Below, one piece after another: positions 8,207 to 62,989 of a stretch of 64,000 bases of DNA. Source of the stretch: Polynucleobacter sp. MWH-P3-07-1 (GTDB lineage: Bacteria > Pseudomonadota > Gammaproteobacteria > Burkholderiales > Burkholderiaceae). The DNA lies in NCBI RefSeq assembly GCF_018687555.1, contig NZ_CP061296.1:1178001-1242000 (forward strand). Direction: 5' to 3'. Positions within the stretch are counted from its first letter, which is position 1. Every line of letters begins with the position of its first letter. The position numbers and the translations under genes were made by a program. The notes beneath the pieces were generated by a model, which did no database searches, was not told the DNA's origin, and saw only the letters and a list, made by a program, of their open reading frames with translations.

Positions 8207-9651
8207 AACGGCTCGTAGCCACCAGAGGAATAGCCAATGGATCCTAATGCTAAGTTATCGAACTTGGTATACGGACCTTGCCAGCTCAGGCGGATTGTCC
8301 CAATTGGACCATTACGCTGTTTGCCGATGATGATCTCTGCCATACCTTTATCTGTGGTGGTATCCGGGTGATAAACCTCATCACGATAAATAAACATGAT
8401 CAAGTCAGCATCTTGCTCGATCGCTCCAGACTCTCGCAAGTCAGACATGATAGGGCGCTTGTTAGGACGTTGCTCAAGACCACGGTTTAACTGAGACAGA
8501 GCAACTACAGGGCATTGCAATTCTTTTGCAAGCGACTTTAGTGAACGGGAGATCTCAGAAATTTCAGTAGCTCGGTTTTCAGAACTGGAGCCACCACTAC
8601 CACTCATCAGTTGCAAATAGTCAATCACGACCAAACCGAGTGTGCCACCAAAGTTTCTGGCAATCCGTCTAGCGCGTGCACGCAATTCCAGACTTGATAA
8701 AGAGCCCGTTTCATCAATCAGAATTTGGGTATTACTGAGGCGGGCAATGGCATCAGTCACACGAGGCCACTCATCGTCTTGCAATTTGCCAGTTCGCATC
8801 CGGCTTTGATCTACCTTGCCTACTGAGCCAAGTAAACGAGAGGCCAATTGCTCACCCGACATCTCCATTGAGAAGACTACGACTGGCAAACCTTCAGAAA
8901 GCGCTACATTCTCAGCGATATTCAATGCAAAAGCCGTTTTCCCCATTGAGGGTCTGCCGGCCACAATCACCAAGTCACCTTTTTGCAAACCACTAGTTTG
9001 CTTATCTAAATCAATAAAGCCTGTAGCAATACCAGTAATGTCGCTACCGCCTTGACGGTTATATAACTCGTCGATGCGTGCAACAACGGATTTCAGCAAG
9101 GGCTCAATCTCGAGCCAATCGTTTTTACGATTGCCTTCTTCACCGATCTGCAAAATGCGTGACTCTGCTTCATCCAGCAAAGTTCTCACCGATCGTCCTT
9201 CAGGCACAAAAGCCGAATTCACAATCGCGTCGGAGACTTCGATTAAGCGTCGCAGAATACTACGATCACGCACGATATCAGCGTAACCCTTGATATTGGC
9301 CGAGCTAGGTGTGTTCTGCGCTAGAGAATTCAGGTAATCAATACCCACCAGATCACCACCCTGCTCTGCCTTTACGGCATCGTGCACGGTAATCACATCA
9401 GCTGGTTGATTCTCACCAATCAGACGTGCCAGCACCTTGAATACCAAGGCATGTTCAGGACGGTAGAAATCTTGATCTGTTAACACACCACCTAAGCGGT
9501 CCCAGGCGGTGTTATCGAGTAGTAGACCGCCGAGCAATGATTGCTCGGCTTCTACAGAGTGAGGCGGGACTTTTAAAGCCTGCAGGGCTGAGTCCCCAGA
9601 ACCCGTCATGCCAGGATTCAGCGTAACGGAACGTGAGCGGGATTCAGCCAT
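8203..9651 (-). CDS. dnaB: replicative DNA helicase DnaB
   Basis: 482 aa, normal length. The N-terminal DnaB domain begins at PPHSVEAEQSLLGGLL; the RecA-like helicase domain has Walker A AGRPSMGKTAFALNIA and Walker B GLVVIDYLQLM, followed by the DLRESGAIEQDADLI segment. It is the hexameric helicase at the replication fork. It is the last gene of the rpsF-priB-rpsR-rplI group, 24 bp after rplI. The ATG has no Shine-Dalgarno, and a TAAACT hexamer occupies -12 to -7, so a separate leaderless transcript is possible. Confidence 0.97.
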   Translation of the reverse strand: MAESRSRSVTLNPGMTGSGDSALQALKVPPHSVEAEQSLLGGLLLDNTAWDRLGGVLTDQDFYRPEHALVFKVLARLIGENQPADVITVHDAVKAEQGGDLVGIDYLNSLAQNTPSSANIKGYADIVRDRSILRRLIEVSDAIVNSAFVPEGRSVRTLLDEAESRILQIGEEGNRKNDWLEIEPLLKSVVARIDELYNRQGGSDITGIATGFIDLDKQTSGLQKGDLVIVAGRPSMGKTAFALNIAENVALSEGLPVVVFSMEMSGEQLASRLLGSVGKVDQSRMRTGKLQDDEWPRVTDAIARLSNTQILIDETGSLSSLELRARARRIARNFGGTLGLVVIDYLQLMSGSGGSSSENRATEISEISRSLKSLAKELQCPVVALSQLNRGLEQRPNKRPIMSDLRESGAIEQDADLIMFIYRDEVYHPDTTTDKGMAEIIIGKQRNGPIGTIRLSWQGPYTKFDNLALGSIGYSSGGYEPF

Positions 9652-9675
9652 GAGGCTAGTTTACAGTTCTAAAAC

Positions 9676-10128
9676 TTAAGCTTGCTCGCCAATGACACGA
9701 ATGGTGATATCAGCCACTACATCGGTATGAACTGCAACCGCTACTGGGTGATCACCAACCATTTTCAATGGGCCAGTAGGCATACGAATAGATGATTTTT
9801 CGATCTCAAAACCTTTGGTCTTCAAAGCATCAGCGATGTCATGGTTAGTGACTGAGCCAAACAAACGTCCATCCACACCTGCTTTTTGACCGATTTCCAA
9901 AACAAGATCTTTCATCTTGACGCCAACCGCTTCAGCAGCAGCCAATTTCTCAGCAGCTAACTTTTCCAATTCAGCACGACGTACTGCAAAGTCAGCAATC
10001 GCAGCTTCAGTAGCACGACGGGCTTTACGTTGTGGGATCAAGAAATTGCGAGCGTAGCCATCTTTAACACGAACAACGTCGCCAAGATTGCCCAAATTGG
10101 TTACTTTTTCTAAAAGAATAATTTGCAT
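9676..10128 (-). CDS. rplI: 50S ribosomal protein L9
   Basis: 150 aa. The N-terminal rRNA-binding domain contains the L9 signature ([19 protein letters not shown], then [12 protein letters not shown]), followed by the long connecting helix rich in Ala/Glu/Lys and the C-terminal domain. It binds 23S rRNA domain V at the base of the L1 stalk. It follows rpsR by 13 bp in the conserved rpsF-priB-rpsR-rplI operon. Confidence 0.97.
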
Positions 10129-10141
10129 AATGGGCTCCTAA

Positions 10142-10414
10142 TTATTTCTTGTGTTGATCTGAGAAAGGTAACAGAGCCAAGAAACGGGCACGCTTGATAG
10201 CGGTGTCCAATTGACGCTGATACTTTGCTTTTGTGCCTGTCAAACGTGCAGGGGTGATCTTTGCATTCTCAGCAATGAAGTCCTTCAAGGTGTCGACATC
10301 TTTGTAATCGATCTGCTCAACACCAGCAACGGTAAAACGGCAATAACGCTTACGCTTGAACAATGGGTTCTGAGCGGGCTTCTTTTTGAAATCGGGTTTC
10401 TTTCCAAACGCCAT
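10142..10414 (-). CDS. rpsR: 30S ribosomal protein S18
   Basis: 90 aa, basic. The core KRKRYCRFT and the [12 protein letters not shown] and [18 protein letters not shown] segments are diagnostic for S18. S18 pairs with S6 on the 30S platform. A GAGGAATC ribosome site precedes the ATG. Twelve bp separate it from priB. Confidence 0.97.
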
Positions 10415-10426
10415 GATGATTCCTCT

Positions 10427-10720
10427 TTAATCTTTCAATTGAATATGGGTAATGTGGAAAACGAGTCTTTGATTACGTAAGGTCTTGGGGGCTAAAAATC
10501 CTTCAAACACTGCCTCGATTCCTAAATCCATTTGCTCTATACCCTTTTGAATTGGGCCAATTGCAATGGCTTCGACACTCATCTGAATTTTCCGCGCTAC
10601 TCCTACTTCGTTAGCTTCACCAGCATGTTCTAGCTGGCAATGCATCACTGGTATTCCAGCGGGGGTAAATCGAATTGCGTCTTTAGCAACCAAGCGTGCA
10701 GTAAGGGTGAAATGATTCAA
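10427..10720 (-). CDS. priB: primosomal replication protein N (PriB)
   Basis: 97 aa single OB-fold protein related to SSB. It helps PriA reload DnaB at stalled forks. The N-terminal NHFTLTARLVAKDAIRFTPAGIPVMHCQLEHAG strand pattern is typical (quoted here only as the region of residues 2-34). Its place between rpsF and rpsR, as in E. coli and other proteobacteria, supports the call. Confidence 0.93.
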   Translation of the reverse strand: MNHFTLTARLVAKDAIRFTPAGIPVMHCQLEHAGEANEVGVARKIQMSVEAIAIGPIQKGIEQMDLGIEAVFEGFLAPKTLRNQRLVFHITHIQLKD

Positions 10721-10779
10721 CGCCGTTCCGCCACTCTATTTCGTTTCGTAGTCTCTGCTTTCCTCTTCAAATTTCTTAC

Positions 10780-11154
10780 TTAGACAGCCACTTCTGGCAC
10801 ATCGGTATGAGCTTGTTTGCGCGCTTCTTCACGCTGCACTTCTTTCATCATGATGGAAGGCTCTGTTTCAGCTTTCTTAGTCTTGATGATGAGGTGGCGC
10901 AAAACAGCATCATTAAATTTGAACGCATGCTCAAGCTCTTCCAGAGTTTTCTGGTCGCACTCAATGTTCATGCAAACGTAATGGGCTTTAGCAAGTTTGT
11001 CGATCATGTAAGCCATCTGACGACGACCCCAATCTTCAATACGATGAACTTTGCCGCCGCTGGCAGCTAAGGTTGCCTTATAGCGATCAATCATCGCTGG
11101 CACTTGCTCGCTTTGGTCCGGATGGACGATAAAGACGATTTCATAATGACGCAT
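10780..11154 (-). CDS. rpsF: 30S ribosomal protein S6
   Basis: 124 aa. The start [18 protein letters not shown] and the strand [17 protein letters not shown] are characteristic of S6; the last 25 residues form a charged tail. S6 forms a heterodimer with S18. AAGGAG lies at good spacing upstream of the ATG. The gene heads the operon and is preceded by a long hairpin that could be the S6:S18 autoregulatory site. Confidence 0.97.
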
Positions 11155-11175
11155 CTAACACTCCTTTAGGGTAAA

Positions 11176-11232
11176 GCCACCTGGGCGTCTTGCTAAGTTC
11201 GGATGGTTGTAGAACTTAGCGACCAGTGTGGC
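11176..11232 (-). promoter_or_regulatory. hairpin leader of rpsF, candidate S6:S18 binding site
   Basis: In the rpsF leader, GCTAAGTTC (11192-11200) and GAACTTAGC (11212-11220) form a perfect nine-pair stem with an 11-nt loop. An outer helix joins GCCACCTGG (11176-11184) to CCAGTGTGGC (11223-11232) with one bulged base. Many bacteria regulate rpsF through a leader stem bound by S6:S18; the position and size fit. I could not confirm the CCG bulge element of that motif. Confidence 0.5.
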
Positions 11233-11267
11233 AAGGTAGTAACAAATTGTAGGTAAACCTAAAACTC

Positions 11268-12344
11268 TCACCTGATTTCAGGCAAGACCGCTATTCTAGC
11301 AAAAAAATCCTGCCAAGTCAGAGATTTAGCGCTCCCGCCCTGTAAATGGGCAGCATTTAAAGCCAACTGCAGTGCGATCCTTGCTTTAGGGCTTGAAAGC
11401 TTGCCGGCTGCCGCAAAGCCGGGCTCGTCCTTTTCAGGAATATTGGGATAAACCGATCCCGCACCTGTTCGAGTGGTTCGCACAATAGCAATGCCCTGCT
11501 CAGCTGCAAGCCCTAAAGCGGACTTCCAAGCATCATGAAAGCCGCCCAAGCCCGAACCTGCAATGACTAAGCCCCTGACATCGGTTTTGAGCCAATGGGC
11601 AATAGATACCTCTCTGGCACCTGCATGACTGGTCAAAATTTCTACCCAGGGCCAAGCATCAGCAGTTGGAATAGGGAAATCCTCTGGAAAGGTCGCTAGG
11701 GTTTCCCTAACCATCGATAGCCAAGAGGGATTGACTAGGTGCATGGGGCTTGAGGATGAATCCTGAATCGGTGCATGAAGAGCGCTACTGTGCCGCTTTG
11801 CGAGATCGGCAGCCAGACAAACCTGGCCTGCAAACACGCCATAAACCCCGCCCGGGGCATTATCCAAGGGGGTAGCAGCCCAGAGAATCGCAGCCATCAG
11901 ATTCTTAGGGCCATCCGCACCAGGAGCATTTGCAGGCAACATCGCACCGGTCAGAACAACCCGCTTACCCAAGGTTGATGCAAGCTTGCTGCAGGTGGCC
12001 TGGAGAAAGACTCCCGTCTCCTCAAGAGTGTCGGTACCATGGGTAATGACGATTCCTGAGACTTGGGTATTGGTAAGGGACTCCCTTACTGCATTGCCCA
12101 ACTGGGTTAGCAGATCCTCACTCAGATTCCGACTATTGATGTTGGCAAGCTGACGGGAGATCAGCTGAACTCCCTCCGGAAGACCCGGCTTGAGGTGGCT
12201 CAGCAGCACGTCTACCCCCAATTGCCCAGCCTCATACTGGAGGGGGTTTCCAGAGGGATTAGAGGCTAGCCCAGCGATGGTACCCCCCATTCCAAGAATC
12301 AGAATATGAGGAGAATTTGCGCTACCTGTGGTTTTTGTGCTCAT
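11268..12344 (-). CDS. L-asparaginase family protein
   Basis: 358 aa. Both family threonine motifs are present: GMGGTIAGL near residue 19 and [12 protein letters not shown] near residue 100, plus DGPKNL. It hydrolyses asparagine to aspartate and ammonia. There is no signal peptide, so a cytoplasmic enzyme is expected. It is divergent from lexA with 63 bp between start codons. A GATAAT hexamer sits at -11 to -6 and there is no ribosome site, suggesting a transcript that begins at or next to the ATG. Confidence 0.9.
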
Positions 12345-12372
12345 GGTTCATTATCCCGCTTCCCAAATTCTC

Positions 12373-12401
12373 TTGAATTGTCTAAAACTGCTGTATACAA
12401 T
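12373..12401 (+). promoter_or_regulatory. lexA promoter, leaderless geometry
   Basis: TTGAAT (12373-12378) and TACAAT (12396-12401) are separated by 17 bp. The -10 hexamer lies at -12 to -7 relative to the lexA ATG, so transcription should begin at or within one base of the start codon. Confidence 0.7.
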
Positions 12402-12406
12402 CACAG
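12391..12406 (+). promoter_or_regulatory. SOS box (LexA operator)
   Basis: CTGTATACAATCACAG fits the CTGT-N8-ACAG LexA consensus exactly at both half-sites. It covers the -10 hexamer and ends one base before the lexA ATG, so bound LexA would occlude both promoter and start codon: autoregulation. It is the only such box I noticed in the window. Confidence 0.9.
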
Positions 12407-12407
12407 C

Positions 12408-13127
12408 ATGGACATAAATACAGTCGATTTCCCTGAAGAGCTAGCCGCCCTCCCTAAACTCACTCCCCGCCAAAGTGAGATCTTGGATCTCATTACCAGC
12501 GCGATCGAGGAAAGTGGTTTGCCACCTACTCGTGCAGAAATTGCAACCCGTCTGGGTTTTGCCTCTGCCAATGCAGCTGAAGAACACTTACGTGCTTTAG
12601 CTCGTAAAGGTTATGTTGAGTTGAGTCCCGGCACATCTCGCGGCATTCGCATTCCACAACGCTTCAATCAGTCGCATAGTCAATCGCGTCCGCATCAAAT
12701 GTCTTTACCTTCAGGTGCATTACAACAGCTGACTCTGCCGCTCATTGGTCGCGTTGCTGCTGGCTCCCCCATCATGGCGGTTGAGCATATCGAGAAGCAC
12801 GTACCCATTGACCCTAGCCTATTTAGCAAAGGTGCTGATTACTTACTCAAAGTGAAAGGCATGAGTATGCGCGATGCCGGTATTTTGGATGGAGATTACT
12901 TAGCAGTGCGTAAAACTACCGAAGTGCGCAATGGCGATATTGTGATTGCCCGCCTCGACGATGAGGTTACTGTTAAACGTTGGCAACAAAAGAAAACTGC
13001 CGATGGCATGGTCATTGAACTCCAGGCAGAGAACCCAGATTTCAAAAATATTCTGGTGGACTCTCGGCAAGCAAACTTTGCCGTTGAAGGTCAGGCAGTA
13101 GGATTGATTAGAGCTGGCGGCCTTTAA
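12408..13127 (+). CDS. lexA: LexA repressor
   Basis: 239 aa from the ATG at 12408. The winged-helix domain begins at [12 protein letters not shown] and includes [14 protein letters not shown]. The S24 protease domain has the A118-G119 cleavage site in RVAAGSP, catalytic S153 (KGMSMRD) and K190 (EVTVKRW). It represses SOS genes until RecA-stimulated self-cleavage. The N-terminus is about 17 residues longer than E. coli LexA, with no other ATG/GTG/TTG before the DNA-binding domain. A frame extension to 12306 runs through the promoter and SOS box and is not real. Confidence 0.96.
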
Positions 13128-13149
13128 GACAAGCCTACCTTAGCAAGCA

Positions 13150-13175
13150 AAAAGGCCTCGTTAGAGGCCTTTTGT
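13150..13175 (+). terminator. intrinsic terminator of lexA
   Basis: AAAAGGCCTC (13150-13159) and GAGGCCTTTT (13164-13173) form a ten-pair stem with a GTTA loop. The arms are A- and T-flanked on both sides, so it can also end the minus-strand lipoprotein transcript. Confidence 0.85.
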
Positions 13176-13196
13176 TTCACTACTTCGCAGCTTGTA

Positions 13197-13652
13197 TTAA
13201 CGCTTAGTAGGAGAAATCACATTCGCGTTCTTCGGGGATGAAGTGATCACAATGATTGTCTTAGGCCCACTAAATGAGCCTTCAGAAACTTCGACCGTTG
13301 CCGTTCTGTCGCCTTTAGTGAATACCAAAATACTGGTCTTGGCTTTGACTGCGCTCACAGTATTCCAGCCAGCTTTGGGGTACTCGGACTGAAAGAATGC
13401 ATACACATCTGTTGCCCCTTGCAAAGCGTTAATGACAGCTCGCCCAACCCATTGATCACCACCACCGATGATGATGGACTCTGCGCCGACAATTTTGGCG
13501 CCTTGAGGCAAAGGCATATCGCCCAAGAGTTGAGTCTGCACTTCCTGAACTTCGGCGGGCGTGCCGCTGGGCGAATCACCGGTTGCGCAACCAAACAATA
13601 GGAAGGCTAATAAAACCGAGGATCCGACTTTGATCAATCTGAATACAGTCAT
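13197..13652 (-). CDS. small lipoprotein of unknown function
   Basis: 151 aa. A signal peptide with lipobox LFGC predicts lipidation at C22. The mature part has a Gly/Ser/Pro-rich linker, then a domain with IIIGGGDQWVGRAVI and a segment DVYAFFQSEYPKAGWNTVSA that suggests a small alpha/beta fold. I do not recognise the family. It has its own promoter (13710-13737) and an AAAGAG ribosome site, and ends against the lexA terminator. Confidence 0.8.
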   Translation of the reverse strand: MTVFRLIKVGSSVLLAFLLFGCATGDSPSGTPAEVQEVQTQLLGDMPLPQGAKIVGAESIIIGGGDQWVGRAVINALQGATDVYAFFQSEYPKAGWNTVSAVKAKTSILVFTKGDRTATVEVSEGSFSGPKTIIVITSSPKNANVISPTKR

Positions 13653-13709
13653 GTTTTGCTCTTTTCAGTTATTTTTACTACAGTGCCTTAACTTACAGCA
13701 ACTATAAGT

Positions 13710-13737
13710 ATTTTAGGTGAAGCCACTATTTCGTCAA
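13710..13737 (-). promoter_or_regulatory. sigma70 promoter of the small lipoprotein gene
   Basis: On the minus strand TTGACG (13737-13732) and TAAAAT (13715-13710) lie 16 bp apart, a near-consensus promoter about 60 bp upstream of the ATG and directly after the tRNA-Cys gene. Confidence 0.75.
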
Positions 13738-13747
13738 GGGAAATAGA

Positions 13748-13821
13748 TGGAGGCGCGTGAGGGAATCGAACCCCCGTACGAAGCTTTGCAGGCTCCTGCC
13801 TAACCACTCGGCCAACGCGCC
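13748..13821 (-). tRNA. tRNA-Cys (GCA)
   Basis: 74 nt including an encoded CCA. The acceptor stem is GGCGCGT paired with ACGCGCC, the anticodon loop reads CCTGCAAAG with GCA, and the T arm contains GGTTCGATTCC. It is the second tRNA after pgsA-linked tRNA-Gly on the same strand. Confidence 0.97.
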
Positions 13822-13832
13822 AAACTTGAATC

Positions 13833-13861: not shown

Positions 13862-13868
13862 TCAAAAT

Positions 13869-13944: not shown

Positions 13945-14017
13945 ATAACAGGGCAGTAGTTTAACAAACAATCGCCAAGAGAGCATTATTTCATTTCAAA
14001 GCAGATAGTCCAGAGCT

Positions 14018-31652: not shown

Positions 31653-32662
31653 GCTTTAGTCTCCGCCACAAAGTCCTGTGCAATTCTTGCTACCATCTTA
31701 TTCTTCGCTGCTTCATATGCACGATCTAAAGCAAAACCAAAGGCAAACCGGTCGGCTGAGCCATGACTTTTGATCACGCAACCGCGCAAACCTAACAATA
31801 CAGCACCGTTATAGCGTCGATGATCTACGCGCTTACGGACTCTCAGCAAGGGCACCATGGCACAGATCGCCATGATTTTGGTCATGAGTGAGCGATTAAA
31901 CTCTTCACGAATCAAGCCGCTCATCATCTTGGCCAAGCCTTCACTCGCCTTCAAAACCACATTACCAACAAAGCCATCACATACTACGATGTCGGTTGTG
32001 CCTTTAAAGATGTCGTTACCTTCAACGTTGCCGTAGAAATTCAGCTTGCTTGCACGCAAAAGTTCAGCGGTTTGTTTAACTACCTCATTACCTTTAATGA
32101 CTTCTTCGCCAATATTCAGCAGTCCAATGGAAGGACGATCTTTACCGTCAACCACTTGAACCATCACGCTCGCCATTTGCGCGAACTGCAATAAATGCAT
32201 AGGCTCACAATCAGCGTTCGCACCTAAATCCAGCATCGTCGTACCGCGCCCCAACTCATTAGGAATTGCAGTAGCGATAGCAGGACGGTCTACTCCATCG
32301 AGCGTTTTCAGTACATAACGAGAGATCGCCATCAAAGCGCCCGTGTTTCCAGATGAAATCACAGCGTCGGCCAAACCTTCCTTCACTTGCTCGATTGCGA
32401 CACGCATCGAAGAATCTTTTTTACGGCGCAAGGCTACCTCGATTGGGTCGTCCATCAAAACAACTTCGCTTGCAGGAACAATTTGAATCTGCTCTAAAAG
32501 CGTTTTGGAATAGGGTTTTAAGGCGAGCTTCAGCTGCTCAGGGTCTCCAACTAAGGAGATTCTGACATCAGGGTGTTTTTCAAGGAAATCGCAGCAAGCG
32601 GGAACGGTAACCACGACCCCATGGTCTCCGCCCATGGCATCAATAGCGAGAGTGACACTCAT
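31649..32662 (-). CDS. plsX: phosphate acyltransferase PlsX
   Basis: 337 aa. [10 protein letters not shown] at the N-terminus and [10 protein letters not shown] near residue 102 are hallmarks. It converts acyl-ACP to acyl-phosphate for phospholipid synthesis. It is 36 bp from the terminator that ends rpmF, has no ribosome site, and has TTGAAC-N16-TTCAAT with the -10 at -12 to -7, so a separate leaderless transcript is plausible. Confidence 0.97.
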
Positions 32663-32668: not shown

Positions 32669-32696
32669 ATTGAATACTGCAATTGAGTATGTTCAA
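32669..32696 (-). promoter_or_regulatory. candidate plsX promoter
   Basis: TTGAAC (32696-32691) and TTCAAT (32674-32669) on the minus strand with a 16-bp spacer. The -10 lies at -12 to -7 of the plsX ATG and the -35 abuts the T-run of the rpmF terminator. Confidence 0.5.
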
Positions 32697-33028: not shown

Positions 33029-33610
33029 TTAGGAACTTTTCTTCATATTTTTCAATATGTTAAAGGGATTTTCTCGCTTTTCAGCAGGGCCTCCCTCTGT
33101 CTCATTGGCGTCACCATAGGACAGATGAGCCTGACAAACTCCCTCGGAATGCTTTGGAATTAAAGGCAAGGAAAGCAGAATTTCATCCTCAATGGTTTCG
33201 AGTAAGTCAAAGTGCTGGGAGGCTACCAAGGGCTCTAGCTCATCATCCTCAATCGGATAGGCATCTGCGTCTGCCTCGCTTGCTAGCAGCAGAAATTGGC
33301 GCTTTTCAACTAGATCCACAGCAAAAGGCCTAAGACAACGCTGACAGATCAAATGCAACTTCCCATTCAGGCTTAAATCCAAAATCGGGTTAGGCTCGCT
33401 TCCGGGCGAATGGGTAAAGCGACTCTGAACTGACCAAGTAAAACCATCCCCTTCAGCAATCTCAGAAACCTCCTTAGCCACTCGGGCTAGGGCTTTGATT
33501 GGTAAAAATCCTGACCCTTGATAGGTCTGAGGGGCGCAAAAATCGATTTTGCGCAACGCATTGGGTTCGCCAGATAAGACCACTTGAGGTAAAACTTGAT
33601 TACGATTCAT
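33029..33610 (-). CDS. yceD: DUF177 / YceD family protein
   Basis: 193 aa. The conserved C-x2-C pair appears as LICQRCLRPFAVDL, followed by the acidic EADADAYPIEDDELEPL region and DEILLSLPLIPKH. YceD is linked to 23S rRNA accumulation/ribosome assembly in other organisms and regularly precedes rpmF, as here. It starts divergently from maf. No ribosome site; TAGACT occupies -12 to -7, so leaderless initiation is possible. Confidence 0.93.
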   Translation of the reverse strand: MNRNQVLPQVVLSGEPNALRKIDFCAPQTYQGSGFLPIKALARVAKEVSEIAEGDGFTWSVQSRFTHSPGSEPNPILDLSLNGKLHLICQRCLRPFAVDLVEKRQFLLLASEADADAYPIEDDELEPLVASQHFDLLETIEDEILLSLPLIPKHSEGVCQAHLSYGDANETEGGPAEKRENPFNILKNMKKSS

Positions 33611-33641
33611 GACATCAGTCTAAATGAAGGCAAGTTTCAGT

Positions 33642-40838: not shown

Positions 40839-40851
40839 TCACAGCCATAAT
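40822..40851 (+). promoter_or_regulatory. moaA promoter, leaderless geometry
   Basis: TTGGCA (40822-40827) and CATAAT (40846-40851), each 5/6 to consensus, with an 18-bp spacer. The -10 sits at -12 to -7 of the moaA ATG. Confidence 0.7.
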
Positions 40852-48068: not shown

Positions 48069-49415
48069 TTATTTTCCGCCCACGGTCATTGAGCCAATCA
48101 AGATCGAACCGGTTTCTTTGCTGCCCCGAACTAAAGTATCACTGCCAATCATGGCAATGTCCATGAGCATGTCACGTAGATTGCCAGCAATTGTGACTTC
48201 CTCAACGGGATATTGAATTTCACCGTTCTCTACCCAGTAACCAAAAGCGCCTCGAGAGTAATCGCCAGTAACGTAATTCACACCCTGGCCCATTAGCTCA
48301 GTCACTAATAAACCGGTGCCCATCTCTTTTAACAGCGCAGGCAATCCACCTTTGCGAGTTCTTTTACTTTGGAATGTGAGATGGTGTGAGCCGCCCGCAT
48401 TACCAGTAGTTTTCATGCCTAACTTGCGCGCAGAGTACGTCGACAGAAAATAGCCCTGCAAAATTCCTTGATCAACCACAGTACGTGCATGGGTTTTTAC
48501 ACCCTCCTCATCAAAAGGCGCGCTACCCATTGTGGCAGGATGATGAGGCTCTTCAATCAGACTGACATGCTTGGGTAATACCGCCTTACCCAGGCTATCT
48601 AGTAAGAAGCTGGATTTACGATATAAAGCCCCGCCTGAAACAGCCTGAACCAAGCCACCCATTAGACCTGCAGCCAGAGGAGCTTCAAAGATTACCGGAC
48701 AACGTCGAGTACTAATCGACCTCGCATTTAGCCGAGAGAGTGCTCGCTCAGCCGCGTACTTTCCGATTGCAGCAGGTTCAGCAAGCTCTGCAGGCACTCG
48801 AGAGCTGGAATACCAGTCATCACGTTGCATGCCCGATTTTTTCGTCAAGCCGTTCGCAATTGGCGCACATGAAATGTAATGGCGAGAAAAAGGATAGCCC
48901 CCCATAAAGCCATTCGTAGTCCCCATCATGAAATGGCCGTGATGGGCGGATACAGAAGCGCCATCACTATTGCGAATTTGTCTACTCACCCCAAAGGCAG
49001 CAGCCTCAGCAGCACGTGCAATCTCAACCGCCTCAATCGAATCGATGTTCCAAGGATAAAACAAATCTAAGTCTTTTGGTTTTTTCTCTAAGAGCTCAGG
49101 CTCGGCCGGACCTGCACAGTCATCCTCTGCGGTATGTTGAGCAATATGGTACGCAGCCTCTACAGTTGCCCGCAAAGATGCTTGTGAAAAATCACTAGTA
49201 CTAGCATTACCCCGGCGATGCCCCAGAAAGACGGTGACCCCAACTTGTTTATCAAGGCTTTGCTCAATCGTTTCCACTTCACCCTTACGGACGGTAACCG
49301 CCAAGCCTTGACCCTCAGAGACTTCAGCGATGGCATCAGAAGCGCCTCTACGCCCAGCCTCTGCCAGCATAAACTCGATGATTTCTTGAAACTGATGGGA
49401 TGAATAAGTGAACAT
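48069..49415 (-). CDS. pmbA: metalloprotease-related protein PmbA/TldE
   Basis: 448 aa. Typical blocks are VTVRKGEVETIEQS, IRNSDGASVSAHHG, and the C-terminal NYVTGDYSRGAFGYWVENGEI with IAGNLRDML. With TldD it forms a protease acting on peptides such as microcin precursors and CcdA. The ATG has TATTAT at -12 to -7 and no ribosome site. It is divergent from mog with 26 bp between the start codons. Confidence 0.95.
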   Translation of the reverse strand: MFTYSSHQFQEIIEFMLAEAGRRGASDAIAEVSEGQGLAVTVRKGEVETIEQSLDKQVGVTVFLGHRRGNASTSDFSQASLRATVEAAYHIAQHTAEDDCAGPAEPELLEKKPKDLDLFYPWNIDSIEAVEIARAAEAAAFGVSRQIRNSDGASVSAHHGHFMMGTTNGFMGGYPFSRHYISCAPIANGLTKKSGMQRDDWYSSSRVPAELAEPAAIGKYAAERALSRLNARSISTRRCPVIFEAPLAAGLMGGLVQAVSGGALYRKSSFLLDSLGKAVLPKHVSLIEEPHHPATMGSAPFDEEGVKTHARTVVDQGILQGYFLSTYSARKLGMKTTGNAGGSHHLTFQSKRTRKGGLPALLKEMGTGLLVTELMGQGVNYVTGDYSRGAFGYWVENGEIQYPVEEVTIAGNLRDMLMDIAMIGSDTLVRGSKETGSILIGSMTVGGK

Positions 49416-49421: not shown

Positions 49422-49435
49422 ATAATAGCTAGAAT
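49422..49435. promoter_or_regulatory. back-to-back leaderless promoters of pmbA and mog
   Basis: TATTAT for pmbA (minus, 49427-49422) and TAGAAT for mog (plus, 49430-49435), each exactly at -12 to -7 of its ATG. A mog -35 candidate, GTGAAC, lies at 49408-49413 within the pmbA start. Confidence 0.6.
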
Positions 49436-50664: not shown

Positions 50665-50670
50665 TATAAT
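50665..50670 (+). promoter_or_regulatory. consensus -10 of the M48 peptidase gene, leaderless geometry
   Basis: A perfect TATAAT at -12 to -7 relative to the ATG at 50677. No good -35 was found at 16-18 bp. Confidence 0.6.
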
Positions 50671-53850: not shown

Positions 53851-54593
53851 ACTTTTAATAAATGATACAGGTTACGCAACATACCAGCAGTAGCTCCCCA
53901 GATAAACCGATTCCCATAGGGCATGGCATAAAACCGACGCATTCCTTGCTCACTTTGCCAGATGCGAACTTGATGATTGGCGGGATCCATCAGAAAACTC
54001 AGAGGCACCTCGAAGATGTCTGCTACTTCAAACTCGTCATGAACATATTCTGCCTGAGCCTGAACCAGCCCTACAACCGGGGTGACGCTGTATCCAGATA
54101 CTGTTAGATACTCGGGTAAATGTCCAATGATTTCGACATTAGCAGGATTGAGGCCAATCTCTTCCTGACTCTCACGCAAGGCGGTCCTTTCAGGGGTGAG
54201 GTCCTCGGGATCCATGCGCCCCCCTGGAAAGCTAATTTGCCCAGCATGATCATGAAGATGCTGCGTTCTCTGAGTAAGCAATACCGATAATCCGCCCTCA
54301 TGTAATAACAGAGGAATGAGCACCGCTGCCTGAGTGATTTTTCCAGCAGCTTGGCGCCTGGCAATAATGTCAGCCGCAATAACGTGGCGGTTCTCATCTG
54401 TGATCTCAGGCTGCCATTGCGGAGGATGTTGAAGACGGTGCCGCAATTGATCTGGATCCAAGACTCGAGGAGATACCTTGGGGTCTTGACTGCACTGCAT
54501 ATGAATCGGAATTGCCTCTGCATCAAACCCCAGAGGGGCTGCAACATTCAGCTTCGAATGTTCCGCAGGGGTAGGAGAAGATGCTTTAGACAT
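53847..54593 (-). CDS. NUDIX hydrolase, probable CoA pyrophosphatase
   Basis: 248 aa. The Nudix box is complete: G-x5-E-x7-REUxEExGU in GRMDPEDLTPERTALRESQEEIG spanning residues about 123-145, and the preceding QISFPGG matches the NuCoA motif of CoA diphosphatases. An N-terminal 80-residue extension precedes it. The ATG lacks a ribosome site and has TAAAAT at -12 to -7. Confidence 0.9.
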   Translation of the reverse strand: MSKASSPTPAEHSKLNVAAPLGFDAEAIPIHMQCSQDPKVSPRVLDPDQLRHRLQHPPQWQPEITDENRHVIAADIIARRQAAGKITQAAVLIPLLLHEGGLSVLLTQRTQHLHDHAGQISFPGGRMDPEDLTPERTALRESQEEIGLNPANVEIIGHLPEYLTVSGYSVTPVVGLVQAQAEYVHDEFEVADIFEVPLSFLMDPANHQVRIWQSEQGMRRFYAMPYGNRFIWGATAGMLRNLYHLLKV

Positions 54594-54599: not shown

Positions 54600-54605
54600 A
54601 TTTTA
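54600..54605 (-). promoter_or_regulatory. candidate -10 of the NUDIX gene, leaderless geometry
   Basis: TAAAAT at -12 to -7 of the ATG. A 17-bp spacer places its -35 inside the rplS terminator hairpin. Confidence 0.5.
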
Positions 54606-54612
54606 GGGCAAT

Positions 54613-54638
54613 AAAAAGGCGACCGAAGTCGCCTTTTT
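54613..54638. terminator. intrinsic terminator of rplS
   Basis: AAAAAGGCGAC (54613-54623) and GTCGCCTTTTT (54628-54638) form a perfect 11-pair stem with loop CGAA; the minus-strand transcript ends in five T. Confidence 0.88.
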
Positions 54639-54659
54639 GTAACAAGCCAAGGGCTCGAA

Positions 54660-57564: not shown

Positions 57565-58007
57565 AAAAATATAAATTCTTATTTTGTGCATTAGGCTTAT
57601 TACTGCCCGGCACAGGTCTCAATGGTTTTTATCTCAAAGGACCAAAATTCTTTTGGTCCTGGATACAGTTGCTTGCTCTGATCGGCGGCATAGCGGGTTG
57701 GTTCCTATTAAAAGAGTATCGTTTTCAATCTGCGCCGGGCTGGGTCTTAATTACGCTAGGGTTTATTGCAATGGAGGCCAGTTGGCTTACCACCATTACC
57801 TTTGGCTTACGTCCAGATGAAAAATGGGATGCGCAATTTAATCCAAAGATGGATATAAGCCAAGCAACTCAATCACGTTGGCCGACGATATTGACCGTGA
57901 TCTTCTCGCTGATTCTTGGTGCAGGCGTGATGATGACCTTCTTAGCGATTTCATTTGAGCAATACTTCGTGTCCCAAATTACCGAGGCGAGAAAAATCTC
58001 TCAGTAA
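57561..58007 (+). CDS. small membrane protein with a TM2-like N-terminus
   Basis: 148 aa with about four membrane segments (residues 5-20, 30-47, 57-75, 105-130). The N-terminal LLPGTGLNGFYLKGPKFFW resembles the TM2 pattern G-x-G-x-FYLG. Function unknown. Translation is coupled to the META lipoprotein, so the two may work together in the envelope. It ends 12 bp before the convergent etfA. Confidence 0.65.
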   Translation: MKKYKFLFCALGLLLPGTGLNGFYLKGPKFFWSWIQLLALIGGIAGWFLLKEYRFQSAPGWVLITLGFIAMEASWLTTITFGLRPDEKWDAQFNPKMDISQATQSRWPTILTVIFSLILGAGVMMTFLAISFEQYFVSQITEARKISQ

Positions 58008-58019
58008 GACATGGGGGGA

Positions 58020-58955
58020 CTAGGTGATTGCTTTGGTAAGCTCAGGGACGGCAGTAAAGAGATCGGCTACTAGGCCATAGTCAGCAACGCTAAATATCGG
58101 CGCATCAGGATCCTTGTTGATTGCCACAATGACTTTCGAGCCCTTCATCCCTGCCAAGTGCTGAATCGCCCCTGAAATTCCGATTGCGATATACAAATCT
58201 GGTGCAACGATCTTGCCAGTTTGGCCAACTTGATAATCATTCGGTACATAACCCGCATCTACTGCAGCGCGTGATGCACCTAATGCCGCCCCCAGTTTAT
58301 CGGCCAAAGGAAGCACCAGTTCTTGATAGGCTTCACCAGATCCTAAGCCGCGCCCACCCGACACAATGATCTTTGCACCGGCCAACTCTGGGCGCTCAGA
58401 CTGATTCAGATCACGGCTAATAAAATCTGATTTCCCAGGACTACTTACAGGAGCTAACTTTGTAATCTCAGCTGACCCGCCACTGACTCGGACAGGATCA
58501 AAGCTAGTGGTACGAACCGTGATAACTTTGATGGGGTCGATCGATTGAACTGTTGCAATTGCATTACCGGCGTAGATTGGTCGTTCAAACGTATCGCTAC
58601 TAACTATCTTGGTGATGTCTGATATCTGAGCCACGTCTAACTTAGCCGCAACACGCGGCATGACATTTTTACCACTAGCAGTTGCTGGAGCAAGAATATG
58701 GCTATATTGATTTGCAATCGCAAGTATCTGCGCAGCCAATGGTTCCGCCAATTGGTCGCCTAAATCAGACGCATCAATGTGAATCACTTTGCGCACTCCA
58801 ATAATTTTGGATGCCTCAATTGCCACTGCATCTGCGGCATTTCCGGCAACCAACACATCCACATCACCGCCACACTGCACCGCAGCGGTAATGGTATGTA
58901 AAGTCGCCGCGTTTAAAAATAGATTGTTGTGTTCAGCAATAACAAGCGCGCTCAT
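58020..58955 (-). CDS. etfA: electron transfer flavoprotein subunit alpha
   Basis: 311 aa. The C-terminal FAD-binding domain shows [37 protein letters not shown] and [16 protein letters not shown] with [11 protein letters not shown]. It receives electrons from acyl-CoA dehydrogenases. It directly follows etfB. Confidence 0.97.
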
Positions 58956-59705
58956 TTAAATCACCTTCGCTTCATTCTTGAGCTTCTCAACTAGCTCTGC
59001 TACGTTGGCCACCATGATCCCAGCCGCACGCTTGGGGGGCTCATCCACGCGAAGCGTTTTAAGGCGAGGGGCAATATCCACCCCCAATTCTTCTGGCTTC
59101 AGAATCTCAAGGGGCTTCTTCTTGGCCTTCATGATGTTGGGCAAGGTGACGTAACGAGGCTCATTCAAGCGTAAGTCAGTAGTAATCACAGCAGGCAAGG
59201 TGAGAGCAATGGTTTCAAGACCGCCATCCACTTCACGGGTCACATTGACTTTGCCATTCTCTACCAGCACTTTTGATGCAAAGGTGCCTTGTGGAATATC
59301 CATGAGACTTGCCAACATTTGGCCAGTCTGATTGCTATCATCATCAATCGCTTGTTTACCCAATAAAATTAATTGGGCTTGCTCTTTATCGCAAATCGCT
59401 TTAAGTAATTTGGCAACCGCTAAAGGCTGTAGTTCAATATCGGTCTCAACTAGGATGGCTTTATCAGCGCCAATCGCCAAAGCAGTACGTAAGGTTTCTT
59501 GACATGGGGTTGGTCCCGCAGAAACGACTACGATCTCGCTCGCCACACCTGCCTCTTTTAATCGTACCGCTTCTTCAATTGCAATCTCGTCAAAAGGATT
59601 CATACTCATTTTGACGTTGGCAATATCAATTCCAGAGTGATCGGATTTGACGCGAACTTTGACGTTGTAATCTACAACCCGCTTTACTGCTACCAAGATC
59701 TTCAT
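58956..59705 (-). CDS. etfB: electron transfer flavoprotein subunit beta
   Basis: 249 aa. [37 protein letters not shown] and [19 protein letters not shown] are diagnostic (first block residues 1-20). It binds AMP and docks dehydrogenases. GAAAG serves as ribosome site. The 85-bp upstream gap holds a TAAAAT candidate -10. Confidence 0.97.
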
Positions 59706-59790
59706 GCTGCTTTCACAATCTATCTAAAACGATGTAAATAAGAATAAGACCCTTATTTTATCTTTATCCCTACAAAGCTCTGGAGATTGA

Positions 59791-60711
59791 CTAAAGATCG
59801 GCTAACGCCTTCACATGAGCTACAACACTACGCCCCAAGGCAGAAAGGTTGTATCCCCCTTCTAGGCAACTAACAATGCGGCCACCGGCGTATTGATCAG
59901 CAATTTCTTTAAGCTTTTTCGTCATCCAGACATAGTCATCCTCTACTAGGCCCATCTGCCCCAAATCATCTTCGCGATGCGCATCAAAACCTGCAGAAAT
60001 AATGATGAGCTCAGGCTCAAAAGCGCGTAGACGAGGTAACCACTCCTGTTCTACGATCGAGCGCACCACATCCCCACGGGTAGTCGCTGGCAGAGGAATA
60101 TTGACCATATTCTTCGCGTGATCTAGGCCGCTATATGGATAAAAAGGATGTTGGAAAAAACTACACATCAACACATGAGGGTCGTTGATAAAAGCCGCTT
60201 CCGTTCCATTACCATGGTGGACATCAAAATCAATTAATGCGACACGTTCGATGCCATACTGCTCAATGGCATAACGGGCAGCAATCGCGACATTATCAAA
60301 TACACAAAAACCCATTGAACGAGTGGGCTCTGCATGGTGCCCGGGTGGACGTACGGCACAAAAGACATTCTCCACTTCACCCTTCATAACAGCATCAACG
60401 CCTGCAATAGCGGCACCAGCTGCACGCAAAGATGTCTGCCAAGTATGGGGGTTCATGATCGTGTCGCCATCCAACATAAAATAACCACTCGCAGGGGCGC
60501 TCTCCTTTACAAAAGCAACATGATCAGGGCTATGCACTAACTCCAATTGATCTTCAGAAGCCAAAGGCGCTTCAAGATGGGTCAAGAATTGATCAACTCC
60601 GCTTCGAATCAACTGATCATTAATTGCCTGAATGCGTTCCGGGCACTCGGGATGATGACTTCCCATTTCATGTTTCAGAAAATCGGGATGCGTAATATAT
60701 CCTGTAGTCAT
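59791..60711 (-). CDS. histone-deacetylase-family amidohydrolase
   Basis: 306 aa arginase/deacetylase fold. Zinc ligands lie in DFDVHHGNGTE and SAGFDAHREDDLG; the charge relay His pair is in RPPGHHAEPTRSMGFC. Bacterial members deacetylate proteins, polyamines or acetoin-related substrates; this one resembles class II type enzymes. Same strand as etfBA, 85 bp upstream; it may be coexpressed. Confidence 0.9.
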   Translation of the reverse strand: MTTGYITHPDFLKHEMGSHHPECPERIQAINDQLIRSGVDQFLTHLEAPLASEDQLELVHSPDHVAFVKESAPASGYFMLDGDTIMNPHTWQTSLRAAGAAIAGVDAVMKGEVENVFCAVRPPGHHAEPTRSMGFCVFDNVAIAARYAIEQYGIERVALIDFDVHHGNGTEAAFINDPHVLMCSFFQHPFYPYSGLDHAKNMVNIPLPATTRGDVVRSIVEQEWLPRLRAFEPELIIISAGFDAHREDDLGQMGLVEDDYVWMTKKLKEIADQYAGGRIVSCLEGGYNLSALGRSVVAHVKALADL

Positions 60712-60794
60712 TAAGAGTAATCCTTCATAGCCAAATAATCTTTTTTGTAATCTAATGCATTGTGCTCACAAATCGAGAAACTCTCCACCTCAGA

Positions 60795-62057
60795 ATGAAG
60801 TTATTCCCAAACTGTTTTCTTAAGCCATTCCTGCTTACTTTAACTTTTTTATTGGCAGCTTGCTCTACGCCATCCCCTCGGGTGAACGATTCAGCAGATG
60901 CCGCGAGTCCAGACATGATTTCCCAAGCGGTTCTGGCCCAAAATCTCCAGCTTTTGATTGGACAAGTGAGCGAATCTCAAGCTATCCCCCCAGCCTTCGT
61001 AGAATCGGGTTTTTCTGACACCAAGACTATTCCCTCTATCCGTAAATTGGTATTACCGCCATCCGGGACTTTTAAGAAAAATTGGGCGGTCTATCGACAA
61101 CGCTTTTTGGAGCCTATTAGGCTCAAGGCTGGAAAAACCTTCTGGGAGCAGAATCAAGCCTACTTAAGCCAGATTGAACAGGATTCTGGAGTACCAGCAG
61201 AGGTCATCGTGGCCATTATTGGTATTGAAACCATCTATGGTCGCCAAACTGGAAACTTCAGGGTCAAGGACGTTTTATCGACCCTTGCGTTTAATTATCC
61301 CGACACGCCCAATAAAGCGGTCCGAGAGCAGTTATTTAAGGATGAGATCAAATCCCTAATTTTGCTTTGCTGGACTCAAGCCGGTGGAAAGTTGCCTGCC
61401 AATAACGCCTCTCAAAATGTCAATCCAGAGCTTTTTAAGCAGTGTGTTAATCAAAATAGCTCATATGCAGGCGCAATAGGTTTGCCTCAATTTATGCCCA
61501 GCAGTATTCGCGCTTATGCAGTGGATGGCGATGGCGATGGGCAAATTGATCTGAGACAAAGTTCACGAGACGCTATTGCAAGTGTTGCCAATTTTTTGAA
61601 ACAGCAAGGCTGGCAACCCGGCATGCCCATCTACTTTGCAATTCCACAGAGTACTTTTGCACAAGCAAGTGCTTTAGCTGATGGGGAGCCTCAACTGAAA
61701 TATTCGGTTCAAGAGTTAATCGAGAAAGGGATTTTGACGCCACAACAGGGCGACCTCCAAGCCGGCGGCGTCTCACCTCAAAGCAAGGCATTGATCGTTG
61801 ACTTACCTTATGCAGATCAAGATGGGACAGATAAGGTTCGATATGTGGTTGGTCTCAATAACTTTTTAACCATCGTGCAATACAACCGCAGTTATTTTTA
61901 TGCTCAGAGTGTCGCTGAATTTGCAGAAGCCCTAGGCTATAAGAACCAGAGTGTGATAACCGCTAACTTACCTGCTCTGCCGTCCGCCAAGCAAAGTACA
62001 AACTCTAAAAAGAAGAAAGCACTTCACAAAAAAGCGACTAAAGCTTCAGTTAATTAA
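60795..62057 (+). CDS. mltB: membrane-bound lytic murein transglycosylase B
   Basis: About 420 aa from the ATG at 60795; an in-frame GTG at 60762 is less likely. Lipobox LLAAC gives an outer-membrane lipoprotein. The SLT catalytic glutamate is in AIIGIETIYGRQTG, followed by GAIGLPQFMPSSIRAYAVDGDGDG (family block near residues 228-251). The tail is Lys-rich. It cleaves peptidoglycan glycan strands to anhydro-muropeptides. The stop overlaps that of cysM by 4 bp. Confidence 0.94.
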   Translation: MKLFPNCFLKPFLLTLTFLLAACSTPSPRVNDSADAASPDMISQAVLAQNLQLLIGQVSESQAIPPAFVESGFSDTKTIPSIRKLVLPPSGTFKKNWAVYRQRFLEPIRLKAGKTFWEQNQAYLSQIEQDSGVPAEVIVAIIGIETIYGRQTGNFRVKDVLSTLAFNYPDTPNKAVREQLFKDEIKSLILLCWTQAGGKLPANNASQNVNPELFKQCVNQNSSYAGAIGLPQFMPSSIRAYAVDGDGDGQIDLRQSSRDAIASVANFLKQQGWQPGMPIYFAIPQSTFAQASALADGEPQLKYSVQELIEKGILTPQQGDLQAGGVSPQSKALIVDLPYADQDGTDKVRYVVGLNNFLTIVQYNRSYFYAQSVAEFAEALGYKNQSVITANLPALPSAKQSTNSKKKKALHKKATKASVN

Positions 62058-62965
62058 GCTGGGAATACACCCGTTGAGAGATAGCGGTCGCCACGATCGC
62101 AAACAATAAAGACTATCGTGGCATTTTCAAGCTGTCGGGCAATTCGGAGTGCTACAACCAAAGCACCACCAGCAGAGATGCCACAAAAGATGCCCTCCTC
62201 TGCAGCTAAGCGTCTAGCCATTTCTTCTGCATCAGCTTGACTGACATACTCAATGCGATCAACTCGATTGCCTTCATAAATCTTTGGCAAATACTCTGGA
62301 GCCCATTTACGAATACCGGGAATTTGAGAGCCCTCTTCAGGTTGAGCGCCAATGATCACGATATTGGGATTCTTAGATTTGAGGTAAGTAGATACACCGG
62401 TGATGGTTCCCGTTGTTCCCATCGAGGAGACAAAATGCGTAACTTGACCATCGGTATCGCGCCAGATTTCAGGGCCAGTAGTTTCAATATGGGCACGTGG
62501 GTTATCGGGATTGGCAAACTGATCAAGTAATTTGCCACGCCCTTCTTTTTGTAACTGTAGCGCGTAATCTCGCGCGAACTCCATACCACCTGAAGCTGCA
62601 GTCAGAATGAGTTCTGCGCCGTAAGCAGCCATGCTCTGCCGGCGCTCAATACTTTGATTTTCTGGCATCACCAAAACCATCTTGTAGCCCAACATGGCGG
62701 CAGCCATTGCTAAGGCAATACCAGTATTGCCACTGGTTGCCTCTACCAGCGTATCGCCTGGCTTGATTTCACCACGCTCTTGTGCACGCAGGATCATCGA
62801 CAGCGCGGGCCGATCTTTGACCGACCCGGCTGGATTATTACCTTCCAACTTACCCAAAATTACATTATTACGAGCAGCATTTTCAGCGCCTGGAATACGT
62901 TGCAATCGAACTAAAGGGGTATTGCCAATAGTCTGCGAAATCGTGAGGTAGTTAGTAGTAGCCAT
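62054..62965 (-). CDS. cysM: cysteine synthase B
   Basis: 303 aa PLP enzyme. The lysine is in NNPAGSVKDRPALSM, with TSGNTGIALA binding substrate and GTTGTITGVSTYL the phosphate. CysM can use thiosulfate or sulfide with O-acetylserine. The ATG has no ribosome site; TAAAAT is at -12 to -7, and the start lies in one copy of a 14-bp direct repeat. Confidence 0.95.
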   Translation of the reverse strand: MATTNYLTISQTIGNTPLVRLQRIPGAENAARNNVILGKLEGNNPAGSVKDRPALSMILRAQERGEIKPGDTLVEATSGNTGIALAMAAAMLGYKMVLVMPENQSIERRQSMAAYGAELILTAASGGMEFARDYALQLQKEGRGKLLDQFANPDNPRAHIETTGPEIWRDTDGQVTHFVSSMGTTGTITGVSTYLKSKNPNIVIIGAQPEEGSQIPGIRKWAPEYLPKIYEGNRVDRIEYVSQADAEEMARRLAAEEGIFCGISAGGALVVALRIARQLENATIVFIVCDRGDRYLSTGVFPA

Positions 62966-62989
62966 AAGACCATTTTAGCCATAAGACCA
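62959..62989. repeat. 14-bp direct repeat spanning the cysM start
   Basis: On the plus strand TAGCCATAAGACCA occurs at 62959-62972 and 62976-62989, period 17 bp. On the coding strand the upstream copy supplies a decoy ATG 17 bases upstream and out of frame. Confidence 0.9.
62972..62977 (-). promoter_or_regulatory. candidate -10 of cysM, leaderless geometry
   Basis: TAAAAT at -12 to -7 of the cysM ATG. It is formed mainly by the spacer of the direct repeat. Confidence 0.5.

Follow-up and report, generated by a model that had tools for sequence, protein, structure and literature searches.

Genes of Polynucleobacter sp. MWH-P3-07-1 carry a −10 promoter hexamer exactly at −12 to −7 of the start codon far more often than expected, and leaderless mRNA from sigma70 promoters is the best fit, which we hold with high confidence on sequence evidence from which both the site of transcription initiation and the way ribosomes load are inferred. 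RNA polymerase typically initiates some 7 bases downstream of the −10 element. Where exactly 6 bp separate the −10 box of a sigma70-type promoter from the ATG, the first transcribed base would be the A of the start codon, and ribosomes would load directly on the leaderless mRNA, without Shine-Dalgarno pairing. We estimate that 50–130 genes (3–8%) of this genome are of this type.

The −10 box at −12 to −7

Starts were called with a home-made, motif-blind caller over 464 kb of a genome of 1.71 Mb, which gave 426 starts: 68 in the window (the whole 64-kb stretch analyzed here) and 358 in twenty other 20-kb stretches, unseen in the sequence-only reading that had proposed the motif. Boxes were scored as at least 5/6 matches to TATAAT, and the looser pattern TANNNT was counted as well. 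A box lies exactly at −12 to −7 at 28 of the 426 starts, where about 3 were expected (p = 2.5e-18); counts at −13, −12 and −11 are 2, 28 and 4 over a background of 3.0 per position, a peak one base wide, and those for TANNNT are 6, 40 and 4 over 7.4. The genome-wide peak on which the sequence-only reading had staked its proposal is thus present. That reading's further claim, that seven box-bearing starts are far above chance, holds for the window alone (7 of 68 motif-blind starts; 0.48 expected, p = 6e-7), and the excess recurs outside it (21/358, p = 4e-13), the rate in the window not being significantly higher than in the rest of the genome (p = 0.18). All seven hexamers (lexA, mog, pmbA, M48, moaA, NUDIX, cysM) are where it had placed them, as are the weaker ones of dnaB, yceD and plsX and the displaced one of the asparaginase gene (Table 1). 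The CTGT-N8-ACAG element upstream of lexA we take to be the LexA/SOS box.

Table 1. Elements upstream of start codons in the window (gene names checked by HMM)
Element	Positions	Strand	Remarks
lexA −10 TACAAT	12396..12401	+	ATG 12408; box at −12..−7
lexA −35-like TTGAAT	12373..12378	+	17-bp spacer; read from sequence
CTGT-N8-ACAG	12391..12406	+	overlaps lexA −10; ends 1 base before ATG
moaA −10 CATAAT	40846..40851	+	ATG 40858; HMM-checked
pmbA −10 TATTAT	49422..49427	-	ATG at 49415
mog −10 TAGAAT	49430..49435	+	ATG 49442
pmbA//mog 26-bp spacer between start codons	49416..49441	.	back-to-back −10 boxes
M48 peptidase gene −10 TATAAT	50665..50670	+	ATG 50677
NUDIX gene (CoA pyrophosphatase) −10 TAAAAT	54600..54605	-	ATG at 54593
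cysM −10 TAAAAT	62972..62977	-	ATG at 62965
dnaB weaker −10 TAAACT	9658..9663	-	ATG at 9651
yceD weaker −10 TAGACT	33617..33622	-	ATG at 33610
plsX weak TTCAAT	32669..32674	-	ATG at 32662; under analysis threshold
asparaginase gene GATAAT	12350..12355	-	ATG at 12344; −11..−6, register off by one base

An artefact of start-codon choice or base composition might be suspected with a home-made caller, whose starts are less certain in GC-rich genomes, and single genes could still be misassigned. As an account of the peak it is most improbable: besides the motif-blind calling, the excess appears without any gene calls (whole-genome counts of TANAAT-N5/N6/N7-ATG are 22/67/31), ATGs other than called starts carry the box at −12 in just 36 of 16,325 cases (0.22%), similar to the 36, 45 and 34 at −14, −13 and −11, and homology-anchored starts agree with the motif-blind ones for pmbA, mog and M48. 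None of 43 annotated E. coli starts has the box at −12, a sample too small to exclude a low rate.

A candidate set of 41 starts, including those of ffh, gpmA, purL, birA, gshA and cysM, was compared with the remaining 385. The Shine-Dalgarno core, present at 22% of all 426 starts, is found at 0/41 candidates versus 92/385 others, in line with the original observation that these genes are poor in it; 39/41 versus 318/385 start with AUG (p = 0.04), and 21/41 versus 87/385 are divergent (p = 2e-4), which bears out the proposed concentration at divergent units. Enrichment of −35 elements across the 41 candidates was sought and was absent (mean best TTGACA match 2.49, against 2.45 for other first genes), and the set does not show the −35 at 16–18 bp of a sigma70 promoter. 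The unenriched −35 boxes, together with the many genes that lack a Shine-Dalgarno core and so want another signal, would suit a hexamer that is no promoter at all, but an AU-rich translation element (a ribosome standby or S1 site) within a longer leader. We regard this as improbable, as the signal sits at a single base position instead of being spread, and is commoner at the first genes of transcription units (21/207) than at operon-inner starts (7/219). The seven inner genes may sit on longer mRNAs too.

A third account, compatible with leaderless transcription from the −12 box, is that this box gives a leaderless form while much of the mRNA comes from another promoter upstream. Several candidates lie inside same-strand gene runs (hisG, hisA and hisE in L004), many Cupriavidus metallidurans mRNAs are reported to have several starts (PMC7563307), and lysE of M. 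tuberculosis is described as having a second start at its first coding base, seen only with lysine. Against this stands the lack of enrichment of boxes at −20 to −13, which would give leaders of 1–8 bases (2.75 per position, against 3.07 farther upstream). Such mixed use is possible, if clearly the less expected state of affairs.

Conservation within the genus

The box is found exactly at −12 in 77/78 orthologues of pmbA, 76/77 of mog and 69/71 of the M48 gene (the other 2 at −13), and in 30/44 of the NUDIX gene with homology-picked starts, which rises to 44/44 when an in-frame ATG up to five codons away may be taken as the start. In reading lexA, as in comparing hexamer variants and twin pairs (below), the motif-bearing start was preferred among nearby ATGs, a bias toward the result; so read, 26 of 28 genus loci, our own included, have the box at −12 (spacer exceptions L300 and L301), and the spacing holds although the N-terminal coding segment differs in length among loci. 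Six control genes give 5/320 together (orn 0/35, rsgA 2/67, cobD 0/63, rplS 0/58, thyA 3/50, fdxA 0/47). Among these, cobD has an at least 5/6 box at −17 in 61/63 orthologues, which may be coding conservation because the cobD start overlaps the NUDIX coding end; a constant box position alone therefore proves little.

With one mismatch permitted anywhere, variation in the hexamers of pmbA (TATTAT/TATCAT/TATGAT), M48 and NUDIX is confined to base 3 or base 4, and T1, A2 and T6, the bases conserved in sigma70 −10 elements, are constant in all three orthologue columns, which argues against a translation element; the mog hexamer is invariant, and hence uninformative here. The 6-base spacer is largely retained in the genus while flanking sequence and length change.

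Predicted twin leaderless divergent pairs

Four divergent pairs, gpmA//rhodanese, ffh//ccsA, pmbA//mog and birA//VanZ, are predicted to be leaderless on both sides, with 20–37 bp from ATG to ATG. In each, two −10 boxes overlap or lie near one another, and 6 bp lead to the AUG on either side: the opposite boxes share 2 bp in gpmA//rhodanese and 4 bp in ffh//ccsA, whereas they do not overlap in pmbA//mog, where they are 2 bp apart and each 6 bp from its own ATG, or in birA//VanZ, where they lie farther apart. A signal that faces both directions is hard to square with a translation element, and where the ATGs are 20–26 bp apart any further promoter, as mixed use supposes, would need to sit inside the neighbor's coding sequence. 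One extra twin, 375 bp apart, emerges in this genome with alternative starts and was left out of the count.

With motif-bearing starts again preferred, twin geometry is kept in 29/29 genus loci for gpmA//rhodanese, 30/30 for ffh//ccsA and 26/30 for birA//VanZ (spacer exceptions L405 and L415–L417). The birA//VanZ gap is 37, 46 or 26 bp, and both −10-to-ATG spacers stay at 6. In a second Polynucleobacter genome, G288, three of our pairs were looked up and keep the geometry, and its 48 sampled divergent pairs contain no twin. As these include five gaps of 0–44 bp and two overlapping calls, the rule that a short divergent gap means a twin leaderless pair failed in this genome.

Outside the genus, a comparison of three gene pairs finds the leaderless form mostly genus-confined for 5 of 6 genes. 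Of 16 gpmA//rhodanese pairs that could be read in other genera, 10 have the overlapping decamer ATTATANAAT, at a greater distance from both ATGs; such changing distances are unlike a start-codon element, and this pair therefore appears to have lost both its leaders in the lineage leading to Polynucleobacter. G058, from another family, has the rhodanese box at −12 and that of gpmA at −13, and may have reached this near-twin state independently. We think it probable that in this lineage the sequence between divergent genes shrank about a shared bidirectional −10 to the point where transcription starts at both start codons; promoter, spacers and start codons would then be a single unit in which the two 6-bp spacers withstand changes in length.

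Other genomes and known systems

The sequence-only reading had also suggested that a compact genome may drop leaders. The mostly genus-confined leaderless form in those three pairs is in its favor; small genome size as a sufficient cause was dropped, since N6 is in no excess over N5 and N7 in six other genomes of 1.2–1.4 Mb, of which four belong to family f25, one to f15 and one to the same family as our strain. Some of the genomes of 1.5–1.8 Mb tested show the excess (G001, G016, G199) and others do not. These spacing controls cover 70 of the 300 genomes searched; a reversed-pattern control proved misleading, AT-rich genomes seeming positive until N5 and N7 served as controls. In some large GC-rich genomes of the same family N7 exceeds N6 (N5/N6/N7 9/19/40 in G116, 6/25/29 in G237). 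By called starts, G288 has a weaker peak (14/342 at −12, 7 more at −13), two sampled same-family genomes have little or none (0/144, 1/155), and family f25 has raised TANNNT at −12 (14 versus 5.3), but not the at least 5/6 box (1/185). For lexA, 1 of 13 loci read outside the genus fits (L305, a weak TACAGT).

Gain and loss of mRNA leaders have so far mostly been inferred from per-phylum counts. In this genus and its relatives, orthologous pairs with and without leaders are built around a −10 decamer of one kind, so that the loss of leaders can be tested gene by gene, along with what it does to expression and how far it depends on exact spacing. Start-site annotation in this common freshwater genus is affected too, because Shine-Dalgarno-seeking methods get no signal at such starts.

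The leaderless class itself is already known; the twin arrangement looks new. Zheng et al. 2011 (PMC3160421) describe TA-like leaderless genes, in which TANNNT about 12 bp before the start replaces the Shine-Dalgarno, and our candidates are alike in the position of TANNNT, the absence of Shine-Dalgarno and the AUG start; their main text names neither Polynucleobacter nor Burkholderia nor Ralstonia, and we found in it neither the gene-level conservation nor the twin pairs described here. The belief that leaderless genes are not common in Betaproteobacteria is not supported: of 71 beta-proteobacterial genomes, 9 are predicted to have them (mean 6.8%, 2.8–10.6; PMC3160421), and they are mapped in Burkholderia cenocepacia, where 72 primary starts coincide with the annotated start and a further 42 lie within 10 nt of it, tRNAs accounting for 24 of the transcripts (PMC4603805), and in C. 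metallidurans, where they make up 4.67% of primary start sites (PMC7563307). Our literature search found no mapped 5′ ends for Polynucleobacter. The leaderless sets of these two species are reported as regulator-enriched (PMC4603805, PMC7563307), whereas ours includes ffh, gpmA and the other genes named above. In Deinococcus-Thermus, likewise, the −10 adjoins the ORF of leaderless mRNAs and an added −35 only enhances expression (PMC12340547), but there, in a different phylum, the form is far commoner, at about 40% of genes (PMC3160421).

Bidirectional promoters with pseudo-symmetric −10 elements were reportedly described by Warman in 2021. Common distances between divergent start points in E. 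coli are given as 18, 10 and 23 (NAR 2026, PMC12825309); the start points implied for gpmA//rhodanese are 23 bp apart, and those for the other twin pairs, at 21, 27 and 38 bp, differ from the common E. coli ones. At such bidirectional promoters one −10 region drives divergent transcripts, as is predicted for the twin pairs. In the twin pairs both transcripts would begin at the AUG, and the start codons would therefore be locked to the promoter, a difference from the known bidirectional promoters.

The -10 hexamer at -12 across the genome

Genes were called in 464 kb of the complete 1.71 Mb genome, comprising the window (positions 1178001-1242000) and 20 spread 20-kb stretches, using dicodon score alone and thus blind to upstream motifs; 451 genes were obtained, of which 426 were usable (enough flank, known neighbour). 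At -12, that is, with the hexamer at -12 to -7 and a 6-bp spacer to the ATG, the geometry predicted to give a leaderless mRNA, 28 of these 426 starts carry at least a 5/6 match to TATAAT, where positions further upstream average 3.0 each (binomial p=2.5e-18), with 2 matches at -13 and 4 at -11, and TANNNT counts are 40 against a background of 7.4 (binomial p=1.4e-17). The sequence-only reading had named seven such genes, lexA, mog, pmbA, M48 peptidase, moaA, NUDIX and cysM, and the motif-blind calls return exactly these (7/68 in the window). The genome-wide excess it predicted is found as well in the stretches it had not seen (21/358), and the peak is therefore not due to its choice of examples; mononucleotide shuffles of the upstream sequences, the control it proposed, gave a mean of 4.4 and a maximum of 12 in 300 trials, versus 28 observed. 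Without gene calls, the 464 kb contain 21 copies of TANAAT-N6-ATG and one to seven copies at every other spacing from 0 to 15, while whole-genome counts are 67 for N6 versus 22 for N5 and 31 for N7. ATGs other than called starts show no -12 signal (36/16,325). The gene calls yield an excess of 25-33 of 426 (6-8%), the whole-genome TANAAT excess is about 40, below the roughly 63 predicted from the sample, and 50-130 such genes is a fair range for this genome. A second Polynucleobacter genome has 14 versus 2.3 expected at -12 (342 starts).

The candidate set comprises 41 starts with at least a 5/6 box, or TANNNT with 4/6. As had been proposed from the window, these lack a Shine-Dalgarno core (0/41 versus 92/385 other starts) and are concentrated at divergent units (21/41 versus 87/385); 39/41 start with ATG. 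Families include ffh, gpmA, birA, NAD kinase, purL, gshA, glnE, hisG, hisA, hisE, cysM and lexA. Enrichment of a -35 box was sought across the candidates and none was found. Boxes that would give leaders of one to eight bases are not enriched among called starts; the geometry thus looks like an all-or-nothing one, which would be expected if leaderless translation depends on an AUG at the very 5' end. Shine-Dalgarno cores are rare overall (22% of the 426 starts versus 24/43 in E. coli), and most genes therefore have neither such a core nor the leaderless geometry. The three his genes lie within a longer run of same-strand genes (see table), as if leaderless internal restarts occurred among them.

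Twin pairs and other located features (X//Y, divergent pair)
Feature	Coordinates	Gap (bp)	Arrangement
ffh//ccsA-like		20	twin, both boxes at -12
gpmA//rhodanese		22	twin, both boxes at -12
pmbA//mog		26	twin, both boxes at -12
VanZ-like//birA		37	twin, both boxes at -12
CTGT-N8-ACAG palindrome	window 12391-12406		overlaps lexA -10, ends 1 base before ATG
Terminator-like hairpin and T run	window 54606-54641		abuts NUDIX -10
hisG, hisA, hisE	locus L004, 2012, 6467, 8443		same strand, each with -10 at -12

Conservation within the genus

Orthologues were counted, where the start was readable, in 80 named loci around pmbA from close relatives, mostly Polynucleobacter. The -10 lies at exactly -12 in 77/78 for pmbA, 76/77 for mog and 69/71 for M48, the remaining two being at -13, and the M48 box stays while the sequence upstream is replaced in several species. 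For NUDIX the count is 30/44, or 44/44 allowing an ATG within five codons. Six neighbouring control genes gave 0/35 (orn), 2/67 (rsgA), 0/63 (cobD), 0/58 (rplS), 3/50 (thyA) and 0/47 (fdxA) at -12; the cobD box is at -17 in 61/63, and the cobD start overlaps the NUDIX coding end. The hairpin before NUDIX probably belongs to the gene upstream, and a comparable one is visible by eye among the orthologues. For lexA, 26/28 genus loci read, our own counted and two further loci with distant matches only left out, have the -12 geometry (misfits L300 and L301); the N-terminal coding segment varies in length and the 6-bp spacer is constant. From their positions, lexA autoregulation through the palindrome, which we take to be SOS-box-like, and a leaderless start would share the same bases.

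Predicted twin leaderless pairs and a probable loss of leaders

The 464 kb hold 54 divergent pairs. Gaps are shorter than 45 bp in six, of which four have a -12 box on both sides (the twins in the table) and two on one side; the 48 longer gaps have none on both sides and 11 on one. None of 48 divergent pairs sampled in the second Polynucleobacter genome is a twin. Conservation was scored in 30 genus genomes, our own counted, by a script biased towards a nearby fitting ATG: gpmA//rhodanese has both boxes at -12 in 29/29 readable loci (one at a contig end was left out), always with 22 bp, the 6-bp flanks varying around the core ATTATAGAAT; ffh//ccsA in 30/30, always with 20 bp; and birA//VanZ in 26/30, with gaps of 37 (16), 46 (5) and 26 bp (5), the length change falling between the two boxes. 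Four loci depart from this. In L405 the birA box is at -13, so one indel did hit a spacer; L415 and L416 have no box at -12 on either side, and L417 has only that of birA.

The outgroup search covered 30 genomes of 29 genera, one being Polynucleobacter. For pmbA, gpmA and ffh, a box of at least 5/6 at -12 occurs only in the Polynucleobacter genome; among the other genomes in which a start could be read the counts are 0/27, 0/20 and 0/29, with some of the pmbA starts uncertain. Under the wider criterion (TANNNT, 4/6) gpmA of L147 also fits, with TAACAT. Including the Polynucleobacter genome, mog fits in 1/24 and rhodanese in 2/16, the second in G058, where the gpmA box is at -13. A rhodanese relative shares the locus in 16 of the 20 outgroup gpmA loci, and ATTATANAAT lies between the two genes in 10/16, or 11 counting ATTTTAGAAT of L137; most of these decamers are ATTATAAAAT, and L138 and L152 have the ATTATAGAAT of the genus. 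In 9/11 the distance from the decamer to codon 1 is 24-66 bp on the rhodanese side and 79-147 bp on the gpmA side (in the same order, L142, 444/29; L150, 394/42). It is present in 6/6 same-family genomes, all with long spacers, and one of these genomes (L138, G149) measures only 1.2 Mb. Longer spacers outside the genus, set against 6 + 6 in Polynucleobacter, indicate in this comparison that the promoter was already in place when the leaders on its two sides were lost. Between mog and pmbA, at least 537 bp separate the aligned ends in 22/23 pairs outside the genus. In L107, the one of these inspected, yjgA/darP, a ribosome-biogenesis gene, lies in that interval (734-1453) and is absent there in the window, so a gene was probably lost too at this pair.

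The ccsA gene adjoining ffh (L164-L193) has its -10 at exactly -12 in 11/26 genomes of the order, with 0-1 at each other offset, and therefore looks like an older leaderless gene; with 10/25 outside the genus, in five families, this cytochrome c assembly gene is a candidate for a conserved one. Six sampled genomes of other genera have a weak -12 peak at most (0/144, 1/155, 1/185, 2/165, 3/152 and 0/156 by gene calls). In two large genomes of the same family, G116 and G237, N7 exceeds N6 (N5/N6/N7 of 9/19/40 and 6/25/29 for TANAAT-ATG), perhaps reflecting a start point one base later.

Mechanism and known systems

Most likely, sigma70 RNA polymerase would use the -10 and start on the A of AUG, the ribosome would take this 5'-terminal AUG directly, and at twin pairs one polymerase site would face either way. 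No paper on leaderless genes in Polynucleobacter was found in the open-licence literature. Among the matches listed, no open-licence title or abstract opening describes two leaderless genes on one promoter; given this scope, the lack of a prior description is weak evidence of novelty. The class of leaderless genes is itself known: such genes are predicted in 9/71 beta-proteobacterial genomes (PMC3160421), and mapped leaderless transcripts are reported in the relatives Burkholderia cenocepacia (PMC4603805) and Cupriavidus metallidurans (PMC7563307). Beyond titles and abstracts, the search for twin pairs covered passages of PMC3160421, PMC12825309 and PMC5648196. The nearest arrangement seen comes from M. 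tuberculosis, where one start within the 108-bp spacer of a gene pair is leaderless, and the 23 bp implied from start to start at gpmA//rhodanese is one common distance for E. coli bidirectional promoters (PMC12825309).
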